From Dehalobacterium formicoaceticum (GTDB lineage Bacteria; Bacillota; Dehalobacteriia; Dehalobacteriales; Dehalobacteriaceae): a DNA stretch of 64,000 bases. Below, piece after piece: positions 58,290-63,965 of this stretch (its first letter is position 1; every line of letters starts with the position of its first letter). The notes below the pieces were generated by a model that did no database searches, had not been told where the DNA came from, and saw only the letters and a program-made list of their open reading frames with translations. A program made the position numbers and the translations under genes. The stretch spans positions 186,001 to 250,000 of the forward strand of contig NZ_CP022121.1 in the NCBI RefSeq assembly GCF_002224645.1. The letters are read 5' to 3'.

Positions 58290-59933
<1,644 letters not shown>

Positions 59934-59940
59934 CTAAGCT

Positions 59941-60234
59941 TTATTTTTCAACTACTGCTAAAATATCTCTATCGCCATTTAAAATCAAATATTCTTCTCC
60001 ATCCATTTTCACTTCGGAACCGGAATATTTTGAATAAATGACCCGATCTCCAACCTTAACTTCCAAGGCAGCCCGTTCGCCATTTTCTAAGACTCTTCCT
60101 GGGCCAACTGCTACAACTTCGCCCTCCTGAGGTTTTTCTTTGGCAGTATCAGGCAATACGATGCCGCTTTTGGTGGTTTCTTCCAATGCGAGTACTTTGA
60201 TTACGACACGATCTCCTAAGGGTTTAATATTCAT
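59941..60234 (-). CDS. groES: Co-chaperonin GroES (Hsp10)
   Basis: A 97-aa GroES with '[12 protein letters not shown]', the mobile loop '[21 protein letters not shown]' and '[25 protein letters not shown]'. Cap of the GroEL chamber. First gene of the operon; the ribosome site GGAGGC is before the ATG. Confidence 0.98.
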
Positions 60235-60567: not shown

Positions 60568-61842
60568 TTAGTCAGGTTGAAAATATGCCGATTCCGGTAA
60601 AATAATTGTACAGGTAGTCCCTTTTCCCAAAGCACTTTCCACTTGGATATGCCCCCCATGATCCTCTATAATTGAATAACATATGGGGAGACCCAACCCG
60701 GTCCCCCCCTCCTTGGTCGTAAAAAAAGGCTGATTGATACATGCCAAAGTCTCTGGATCCATCCCCGTGCCATTATCTGAGATGGTAACTCTGCCTTCCG
60801 CGGTTTCAGCATCATATTTAGTGTCAATTTCGATCAATCCCTGAGCAGAAATTGCCCCGAATGCGTTGGAAAGAAGATTGATCAGCACCTGTTTTATCCG
60901 GCTTTCATCCACCAGCATCAAAGGCATTTTCTCATCGAAGCGGGCTTCAATGGCCACATTTTGCATCAGTGCCTCACTGCTCATCAGCAAGATCACCTCT
61001 TCCACTAAAGCGTTCATATCTTTTCTCAGAAATTTCGCCACAGAGGGTTTTGCCAATTGAAGAAATTCCTGAATTATCCCATTGGCGCGATCAATTTCAC
61101 TAATAATAATTTCTCCATAGGCCTTAACATTTTCATTATCTTGATTCTCTTCTCCCAGAAGCTGCACGAAACCCTTGACCGATTGAAGGGGATTCCTGAT
61201 TTCATGGCAAATCCCGGCAGCCATTTGTCCCACCGCAGTAAGACACTCATTTCGCTCGATTTGTTCTTCAAAAACCTTACCTGTCCTATCATCTGTAAGC
61301 ATGACAAAAGTCCCCTGGAAACCCTCTTTTTGGTTCAATGTATAGGTTGTAAGACGCACCATCTCCCTTGTTCCATTGATTCGAACACCGACAGGCACCT
61401 GTTCATAAGCAATTCTATGATATAAGGTGTCTTTAATAAAGTCAGAAAGTTCTAAAGAGCCATCCAGGATAACCCTTTTCCCCATACACTCCTGGAGTTT
61501 CTTGCTCACCACGTCTTGCCGATTTAAGTTTATGAATTCCGCCCCATAATCATTGATATAGACAATGGTTTCCTCCTTACTCACGATAAAGATTACGAAA
61601 GGCATGCGGTCAAGGATTTCACCGATCCAGAAATGAGCATCTTTCTCTTCATTTGCTTCATGATGGTAATAATGATGGAAAAAACTTCGATAAAGTGCAA
61701 GGACCAGAATACCCCAGATCAGAGAAAGGAAGATCATCAGAACCTGCAACTCCGGATCCCCAAAAAAGAAGGGTAAAACCACCAAGGGCAAAACACTCAT
61801 TAAATATATTCCCCACCAGAAAAAATAACTGGGTGAGAGCAT
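60568..61842 (-). CDS. Membrane PAS-domain sensor histidine kinase
   Basis: About 424 aa: two membrane segments (about 6-27 and 33-53), a PAS domain (about 72-190, 'MPFVIFIVSKEETIVYINDYGAEFINLN'), a HisKA domain with the phosphorylated histidine H213 in 'GICHEIRNPLQSVKGF', and a HATPase_c domain with N-box 'LINLLSNAFGAI', G1 'DNGTGMD' and G2 'GGTGLGLPI'. No response regulator is adjacent, so it is an orphan kinase. The layout resembles sporulation kinases that feed Spo0A in Clostridia. The ATG at 61842 has GGGGAG at 8 nt. Confidence 0.92.
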   Translation of the reverse strand: MLSPSYFFWWGIYLMSVLPLVVLPFFFGDPELQVLMIFLSLIWGILVLALYRSFFHHYYHHEANEEKDAHFWIGEILDRMPFVIFIVSKEETIVYINDYGAEFINLNRQDVVSKKLQECMGKRVILDGSLELSDFIKDTLYHRIAYEQVPVGVRINGTREMVRLTTYTLNQKEGFQGTFVMLTDDRTGKVFEEQIERNECLTAVGQMAAGICHEIRNPLQSVKGFVQLLGEENQDNENVKAYGEIIISEIDRANGIIQEFLQLAKPSVAKFLRKDMNALVEEVILLMSSEALMQNVAIEARFDEKMPLMLVDESRIKQVLINLLSNAFGAISAQGLIEIDTKYDAETAEGRVTISDNGTGMDPETLACINQPFFTTKEGGTGLGLPICYSIIEDHGGHIQVESALGKGTTCTIILPESAYFQPD

Positions 61843-61969
61843 CGTAACCACTCCCCAAAACGTTTTCTTAAGCGCAATATTTAATAAATTCGTGCCCGGT
61901 AGATTTTTCCCTTTAGTATAATTCCAGCATCATTCGTCAAAAACACTTCGAAAAGGCTTTTTTTGTCAT

Positions 61970-62539
61970 TTATGGCCGAGAATATACCTTGTCTTCCGTC
62001 ACTACCAGATCCATGGGAATATCATACGGATCCGGATCTAAGGAGGGGACGATCTGCATAGCGAAGGCCACAGCGATTTTCGGGGTTTGCTCCTTTAAGC
62101 GGGGTAAAAAGCGGTCATAATAGCCCCCGCCGTAACCCAGTCGGTTGCAAGCTTCGTCAAAGGCTACCCCGGGGACAATGACGCAATCAAGTTCCTCCGG
62201 TGCTACGGGCCGCATTTTATCTGCTTTTGGTTCCAAGATACCCCATGTGCCCGGCGCCAAATCCTCTTCCAGGTCCCTCAGTTCAGAAGGAACGATGACG
62301 ATATTTTTTGGCTCACAGACGGGTATCACTACCCTTTTATTTTCCTGCCACAGGTGCTCGATTAAAGGCATGACATCCACCTCATTACGAAACGGAAGAT
62401 AAAGCATCACTGTACTTGCTTTTTGAAAGCTCGGAAATTGTAAAATTTTTTCGCAAATAATTTTGCTTTTTTCTCTTACTTGATTCCGATCCAGAGATCC
62501 CCTTATTTTTAAAAGTTCTTTGCGCTGCTTCTTTTTCAT
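61970..62539 (-). CDS. 5-formyltetrahydrofolate cyclo-ligase
   Basis: A 189-aa enzyme (MTHFS/YgfA family) that converts 5-formyl-THF to 5,10-methenyl-THF using ATP. N-terminal 'KKKQRKELLKIRGSL' basic helix, 'MLYLPFRNEVDVMPLIEHLW' and the ATP-site motif 'NRLGYGGGYYDRFLP' are present. It supports folate-bound one-carbon flow, which is relevant to the methyltransferase locus upstream in the window but also housekeeping. GGGAGGG precedes the ATG. Confidence 0.95.
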   Translation of the reverse strand: MKKKQRKELLKIRGSLDRNQVREKSKIICEKILQFPSFQKASTVMLYLPFRNEVDVMPLIEHLWQENKRVVIPVCEPKNIVIVPSELRDLEEDLAPGTWGILEPKADKMRPVAPEELDCVIVPGVAFDEACNRLGYGGGYYDRFLPRLKEQTPKIAVAFAMQIVPSLDPDPYDIPMDLVVTEDKVYSRP

Positions 62540-62714
62540 AGAACCCTCCCATTAATATTCATTTATTATTCTGCATATTTATTCATGGATGTTAACTCCA
62601 CGATATCCGAAATCAGGTATTTTTTCTTAGTAAATCCATAAATTTTTCTTTGTGAAGCATTTCTTTTTCGTTTGTCAAGATCAAATAGGTTTGTTCTTCA
62701 TTTTTGTCTGTCCA

Positions 62715-62890
62715 CCGGTCTATCCACAGCTGATAAGCTCTTTAGCTGGCGTTTTATATAGTTATCCCCAGAAACCCTATTTTATTCCCCAGATAAGCTA
62801 TTTTTTCTTCCACACCTTTTCATCCCCATCGCTCTAAGTTATTAACAAACTTATCCACATTATCCACAGTTTCTTCGTCCACAAGTGGGT
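62715..62890. other. Cluster of DnaA-box-like sites in the tsaD downstream region
   Basis: Two perfect TTATCCACA nonamers abut directly (62851-62859, 62860-62868), with related 9-mers CTATCCACA (62720-62728), TTATCCCCA (62762-62770) and TCGTCCACA (62875-62883), all in the same orientation. The region is A/T-rich and non-coding (62540-62948). TTATCCACA is the high-affinity DnaA box. Binding of DnaA is inferred; dnaA itself is not in the window. Confidence 0.65.
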
Positions 62891-62948
62891 AATTAGCTAT
62901 GGTTTAAATACTTAATGTTTTTCTGTAAAATACCCTGGGTTTTATTAT

Positions 62949-63965
62949 TCATGAGGTGAATAATGATAAATTGGGTACCGCATTTAAGGTCAAATCGGAA
63001 AATTCCCCTCTGAGATACTTATAGTAAGCAGCACAGCCAATCATCGCCGCATTATCCGTGCACAAAACAGGAGACGGCCATAACACATTGATGTTTTCTT
63101 GCCCCGCTTTTTCTTGCAGCATTTCTCTTAATCTGAGATTGGCCGCGACTCCACCGGCTAAAAGAATCGTTGGCACCTTTTTCTTTTTTGCCGCAACCAC
63201 GGCCTTGGTTGCCAATACATCCCCAATGGCCTCCTGCAAACCAGCCGCAATATCAGGGATATCATAGGCTTCGTCCTTCATTTTGCATTGATTCAAATAA
63301 TTTAACACCGAAGACTTCAAGCCGCTGAAGCTAAAATCAAGACTGTCTTTTTCTAACCAAGCTCTGGGAAATACCAGCTTCTCTCTGTTACCTTGAAGGG
63401 CAGCCTGCTGAATCTGCGGTCCCCCCGGATAACCCAGGCCTAAATGCCGGGCAACCTTGTCAAAGGCTTCCCCCGCTGCATCATCCCTGGTTTGCCCTAA
63501 TAATTCGTATGCACCCCTTTTAGGGAGATAAACCAAACTGGTATGTCCCCCCGATACAACCAAAGCCACCAAGGGGAAAGCTAAATCAGGATATTCCAAA
63601 AAACCGGCATGAATATGCCCCTCCAAATGATGCACTCCGATGAGTGGTTTTTCTATGGCATAGGCCGCCGCTTTGGCATAAGAAAGGCCGACCAATAAGG
63701 CACCAACTAAGCCAGGCCCGTAGGCAACCCCAATCCCGTCAATATCCTTAAAATCCGCTTCTGCCTCACTTAATGCTTCTTGAACCACAAAAGGCAGAGC
63801 TTCTAAGTGTTTTCTGGAAGCAATTTCCGGAACTACACCGCCATATTTTTTATGGATCTCGATTTGTGATGAAATAATATTAGATCTGATGACTCTTCCG
63901 TCTTGAATAACAGCAACAGAGGATTCATCACAACTGGTTTCAATGGCTAAGATATTTACCGCCAT
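62949..63965 (-). CDS. tsaD: tRNA threonylcarbamoyladenosine transferase subunit TsaD
   Basis: A 338-aa ASKHA-fold protein that transfers the threonylcarbamoyl group to A37 of ANN-decoding tRNAs, with TsaB and TsaE. Metal-binding histidines are in 'HHLEGHIHAG' (HxExH), the start 'LAIETSCDESSVAV', 'SGGHTSLV', and the C-terminal 'TDNAAMIG' motif are conserved. AAAGGAGATTAAT precedes the ATG. tsaB and rimI would be expected just beyond the right edge. Confidence 0.98.
   Translation of the reverse strand: MAVNILAIETSCDESSVAVIQDGRVIRSNIISSQIEIHKKYGGVVPEIASRKHLEALPFVVQEALSEAEADFKDIDGIGVAYGPGLVGALLVGLSYAKAAAYAIEKPLIGVHHLEGHIHAGFLEYPDLAFPLVALVVSGGHTSLVYLPKRGAYELLGQTRDDAAGEAFDKVARHLGLGYPGGPQIQQAALQGNREKLVFPRAWLEKDSLDFSFSGLKSSVLNYLNQCKMKDEAYDIPDIAAGLQEAIGDVLATKAVVAAKKKKVPTILLAGGVAANLRLREMLQEKAGQENINVLWPSPVLCTDNAAMIGCAAYYKYLRGEFSDLTLNAVPNLSLFTS

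Follow-up and report, generated by a model that had tools for sequence, protein, structure and literature searches.

DnaA-box clusters outside oriC are known from Bacillus subtilis, and the one between gcp and ydiF is the closest described counterpart of the locus presented here. This cluster was reportedly among the six extra-oriC clusters removed in B. subtilis in Okumura's work of 2012. Effects of single clusters in this species are weak, a strong phenotype needing the removal of all six, and removal of the six leads to early initiation (PMC5295017, PMC13220808). The gcp/ydiF region binds ATP-DnaA with a Kd of 0.15 uM, similar to the 0.21 and 0.16 for two parts of oriC, with 16-fold more DNA recovered with ATP-DnaA than with ADP-DnaA at 55 nM, and the cluster sits between two convergent 3' ends, at an origin-proximal position of 628 kb (Smith and Grossman 2015, PMC4447404). 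DnaA is also a transcription factor in B. subtilis, at the sda and dnaA promoters (PMC4447404). According to a 2026 review, B. subtilis possesses neither IHF nor datA or DARS loci. An earlier note on the DNA considered here, made from the letters alone, pointed to a group of DnaA boxes next to gcp in B. subtilis, in agreement with the literature on the gcp-ydiF cluster (PMC4447404).

An abutting pair of DnaA boxes behind tsaD

The window, by which we mean the whole stretch of 64,000 nucleotides analysed, comes from Dehalobacterium formicoaceticum (Bacillota, Clostridia in the NCBI taxonomy). It encodes TsaD (tRNA N6-adenosine threonylcarbamoyltransferase, formerly Gcp; 62949-63965, minus strand; PF00814), followed by a 5-formyltetrahydrofolate cyclo-ligase (5-FCL) gene (61970-62539, minus strand), with groES-groEL (58290-60234, minus strand) as context only. 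The 3' end of tsaD, the conserved anchor of the array described below, and the 5' end of the 5-FCL gene are separated by exactly 409 nt (62540-62948; GC 33%), gene-free as the earlier note had it, the sole open reading frame inside being a 61-aa one with a GTG start. This intergenic region has no Rfam match to a structured RNA element at E <= 1, and promoter and terminator scans of it gave signal at the level of shuffled sequences.

Two exact DnaA boxes, TTATCCACA, are found on the plus strand at 62851-62859 and 62860-62868, head to tail and with zero gap, as had been claimed, the pair reading TTATCCACATTATCCACA (62851-62868). They represent positions 2 and 3 of an array whose position 1 is a degenerate box with two mismatches (TTATTAACA, 62839-62847), 12 nt upstream and in register, and whose position 4 is another box with two mismatches (TCGTCCACA, 62875-62883), at a place where relatives show a (T)CCACA half-box. 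The near-matches in the same orientation, also reported from the letters, are likewise present: two boxes with one mismatch, CTATCCACA (62720-62728) and TTATCCCCA (62762-62770), lie 42 nt apart, a spacing of 42-45 nt that recurs in relatives, and two more sites with two mismatches, TCTTCCACA at 62806 and TCATCCCCA at 62820, bring the near-matches to two with one mismatch and four with two, all on the plus strand.

The expectation that two abutting perfect copies would hardly arise by chance was borne out. Among 20,000 dinucleotide-preserving shuffles of 62540-62948, the null model used, one exact box occurred in 142, and neither two exact boxes nor an abutting pair occurred in any; at least four boxes with at most one mismatch occurred in none of 3,000 shuffles of the region. 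In the D. formicoaceticum genome, a single contig of 3,766,545 bases (3.77 Mb), exact boxes number 53, versus 20 for the reversed motif, and abutting pairs are found in two places only, the tsaD array and C1:988315-988332. Chance clustering is rejected by the shuffles along with the reversed-motif controls.

Conservation and layout at tsaD and hpf

Conservation was followed in 149 genomes spread evenly over the window's phylum, with tsaD placed in 148 and 146 tsaD loci counted; the counts cover about 77 families of this phylum, and for the Bacilli proper we rely on the B. subtilis literature. The phylum samples drawn via genomes labelled Thermoanaerobacter (G194) and Eubacteriales (G198) are about the same as the window's, and one genome (G003) belongs to the window's family. 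A MAG labelled Fusobacteria (L051/G134/G207) groups with the window's phylum and is probably mislabelled.

The enrichment to be expected behind tsaD in relatives, were the site conserved, is indeed observed. Over the 146 loci, the first 250 nt behind tsaD contain 203 exact boxes, 188 of them antisense to tsaD, at a density of 5.56/kb, compared to 0.36/kb at 250-500 nt and to a background of 0.00-0.08/kb within tsaD, upstream of it and 500-1500 nt downstream, and the reversed motif gives 0 boxes in the same 0-250 nt. At least two antisense boxes are present in 92 of the 146 genomes, from 50 of the 77 families, and at least three boxes with at most one mismatch at 87 of the 146 loci; by the two-box count the cluster is missing from 54 genomes, and 27 families have none. 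Conservation across distant Firmicutes, as the earlier note suggested, is shown within the window's phylum, over about 77 families; of the Mycoplasmatota-like loci, none (0/38) have two or more boxes. Loci from other phyla, serving as a control, have at least two boxes in 4 of 62 cases. Two antisense boxes, one of them exact, were seen within 250 nt behind tsaD in L067, L075 and L082 (labelled Falkowbacteria or Parcubacteria) and in L100 (labelled 'bacterium').

On a TsaD tree (FastTree), the array trait takes 25 changes, versus 44 when the labels are shuffled (200 shuffles, minimum 37), and a midpoint-rooted parsimony reconstruction places it at the root, a pattern weakly consistent with old inheritance followed by later losses. 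Positional conservation of this kind shows selection, the selected function not being specified thereby.

The layout is also stereotyped. The step between successive boxes is 9 nt in 84 cases and 12 nt in 48, the next being 42-45 nt, and the common form, antisense to tsaD, is about G-TTATYAACA-N3-TTATCCACA-TTATCCACA-GG-N5-7-(AT)CCACA, of which the register TTATYAACA-N3-box-box recurs in most arrays as well as at hpf. A search for the abutting pair (TTATNCACATTATNCACA) returned 98 matches in 74 of the 149 genomes, and the reversed pattern 0. Of these pairs, 47 are located no more than 2.8 kb behind tsaD, all antisense, with 44 of them at 13-362 nt; the remainder comprises 25 upstream of hpf, 1 near dnaA and 25 elsewhere. 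In two genomes, G055 (L386) and G161 (L182), tsaD and the pair are separated by other genes (one of them integrase-like in G055), and the pair adjoins the 5-FCL gene; in G089 (L398) and G046 the pair is found apart from tsaD, next to a gene for a histidine kinase related to that encoded at 60568-61851 in the window. A palindrome-like sequence, AAAC-N4-GTTC, was noticed 14-17 nt past the pair (G053, G096, G148, G044, G080, and others). It is present in 17 of the 92 array genomes (11 families) versus 0 of the 54 genomes without the array, is not found in the window's own array, and resembles the Firmicute LexA box, one base off.

The other pair of the D. formicoaceticum genome (L382:4316-4333 in locus coordinates) is located between a comFC-like gene and hpf, on a different chromosome arm from the tsaD array, and in the same register, TTATTAACAGAG-TTATCCACA-TTATCCACA-GG. 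Among the 149 genomes, the 25 pairs upstream of hpf lie at a distance of 146-4,418 nt, all on the hpf strand, and represent 18 families; a further set of 20 hpf loci shows a one-mismatch abutting pair some 450-680 nt upstream in about half of the cases. Thirteen genomes possess the pair at both the tsaD and the hpf sites, and the two arrays are on opposite arms in G000, G107, G144, G176, and G180, whereas in G162 they share an arm. A TTTCGACA-like (Spo0A-box-like) sequence was seen about 40 nt past the hpf array (L382:4201-4420, also L208, L388, and L195). In B. subtilis, the eight regions named as binding DnaA most strongly do not include the hpf/comFC site (PMC4447404).

Both the stereotyped array and the additional site at hpf seem to be new. 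Our literature searches turned up no account of tsaD-array conservation or of the site at hpf, though conservation within Bacillus may already have been described, and searches that combined DnaA boxes with tsaD, or else with hpf plus comFC, gave nothing relevant.

Relation to oriC

The cluster is located away from dnaA, as the earlier note had stated. The genome's own oriC (gidA-trmE-jag-yidC...dnaA-dnaN-recF) is found at 700-711 kb, with the best DnaA match there, and the tsaD array is 454 kb from dnaA, an origin-proximal 12.0% of the chromosome; the 628 kb of the B. subtilis cluster is about 15% of that chromosome. The same genome shows twenty identical-scoring matches to IstB/DnaA-like ATPases, which suggests that an insertion sequence is present in some twenty copies. 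The GC skew keeps one sign over the whole window, indicating no origin, and with dnaA/dnaN 454 kb off and a skew switch absent, a nearby origin is excluded. Among 28 near-complete genomes, the tsaD-dnaA distance is 9.6-36.4% of the chromosome, with a median of 15.6% in genomes without the array versus 18.7%; in array-less genomes tsaD is no further from dnaA, and presence of the array thus does not follow from distance alone.

It could still be proposed that the array serves as a cryptic or back-up replication origin, given how densely DnaA boxes are packed in this AT-rich intergenic region. However, neither dnaA nor dnaN nor a skew switch is found nearby, DnaA-trio-like repeats are absent from the window and present in just 2 of the 92 arrays, and an abutting pair with at most one mismatch is found in 0 of 21 oriC regions (some of these contigs start at dnaA, leaving little upstream sequence in several), making such a role extremely improbable. 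The boxes of the genome's own oriC are seven with one mismatch and none exact, and the tsaD array has two exact ones. As the pair layout is absent from the oriC regions, it would mark non-origin sites rather than the origin, and abutting boxes may be of use in origin prediction, as a signature separating non-origin DnaA sites from oriC.

Proposed DnaA titration, its rivals and the known systems

With the sequence, position, non-origin nature and stereotyped layout of the array established by sequence analysis, along with its conserved presence behind tsaD as well as upstream of hpf, and considering the variable next gene and the binding and phenotype data from B. subtilis, we favor, with a probability of about 0.6, a reading of the tsaD array as an extra-oriC, high-affinity and early-replicated DnaA-titration site, the main rivals being local control and a datA/DARS-like role. 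Occupancy by DnaA would be expected from the motif and from measured binding at the corresponding locus of B. subtilis; titration would be expected from the phenotype published for a B. subtilis strain without the six clusters. As proposed, DnaA would load side by side onto the abutting same-direction boxes, along with the outlying boxes at steps of about 42 nt, and the array would keep DnaA, chiefly in its ATP form, from oriC. With about 12% of the chromosome separating it from oriC, it would be copied early in each round, upon which the capacity would double, free DnaA would fall and re-initiation would be delayed. The array upstream of hpf, on the other arm of the D. formicoaceticum chromosome, would act as its twin.

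Local gene control, in which DnaA would repress, activate or block the next gene (5-FCL in this case) or stop read-through from tsaD, is compatible with the position of the cluster upstream of the 5-FCL start and with DnaA being a known transcription factor (PMC4447404), as well as with the hpf array being always upstream of hpf and on the hpf strand, and the pairs that stayed with 5-FCL in G055 and G161, despite genes intervening after tsaD, leave it some room. However, the gene after tsaD varies among the array genomes (Lgt, 5-FCL, radical SAM, MurC, and others, by a rough grouping of open reading frames, shadow ones included) and the array remains behind tsaD, making an operator for one specific gene unlikely, and the B. 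subtilis cluster is flanked by convergent 3' ends, a setting in which a promoter would not be expected; overall, we consider local control unlikely. We give a similarly low chance to a counterpart of datA or DARS, on which assembled DnaA would change its nucleotide state, by ATP hydrolysis or ADP release, and not just be held. The fixed order and spacing of the boxes would imply a defined DnaA oligomer, beyond the needs of a sink, and AAAC-N4-GTTC, conserved 14-17 nt away in 11 families, suggests a partner protein, but with IHF, datA and DARS all absent from B. subtilis (2026 review) the known cofactor is missing there. Highly unlikely, in our estimate, is that another protein binds the array, or that it is a landmark of chromosome arrangement (an anchor for DnaA/Soj or a nucleoid protein, for example) with titration as a by-product: the array strand is constant relative to the anchor gene and there is one array per arm in the D. 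formicoaceticum genome, but the units are the exact DnaA-box consensus and purified DnaA binds the equivalent B. subtilis locus. A broader proposal, possible if rather doubtful, is of an ancient two-site DnaA control in most of the phylum, in which the tsaD and hpf arrays, often on opposite arms, would be a datA/DARS counterpart acting via a defined oligomer, possibly with a partner at AAAC-N4-GTTC, and not a passive sink.

Returning to titration, the presence of the array at the same address in the majority of the related species sampled suggests an old, overlooked brake on chromosome copying, and this bears on how, in most of the Firmicutes, bacteria lacking Hda, SeqA or datA keep replication to a single start in each cycle. 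One address in dozens of families, with strand and spacing constant, would argue for strong selection on extra-oriC DnaA binding, with the caveat that in B. subtilis the strong phenotype is seen only with all six clusters removed. The two short loci, the tsaD and hpf arrays, offer direct deletion tests of titration in many species.

As to the known systems, the array shares with an oriC of the dnaA-dnaN type a DnaA-box cluster in an AT-rich intergenic region, and differs from it in having no adjacent dnaA/dnaN, no GC-skew switch, no DnaA-trio, and in its abutting pair. Similarly to datA of Escherichia coli, it would be a non-coding DnaA-box locus outside oriC, at a conserved distance from it and in negative control of initiation, but datA needs IHF, promotes DnaA-ATP hydrolysis, and has another box layout, neighborhood and phylum. 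E. coli DARS1 and DARS2, which reactivate DnaA-ADP, are also non-coding DnaA-box loci outside oriC. The B. subtilis gcp-ydiF cluster has convergent neighbors and ten predicted boxes. What the two have in common are multiple DnaA boxes, in the window clustered beyond chance, in an intergenic, origin-proximal position outside oriC, at the 3' end of tsaD/gcp, placing the array with clusters of the DBC type.
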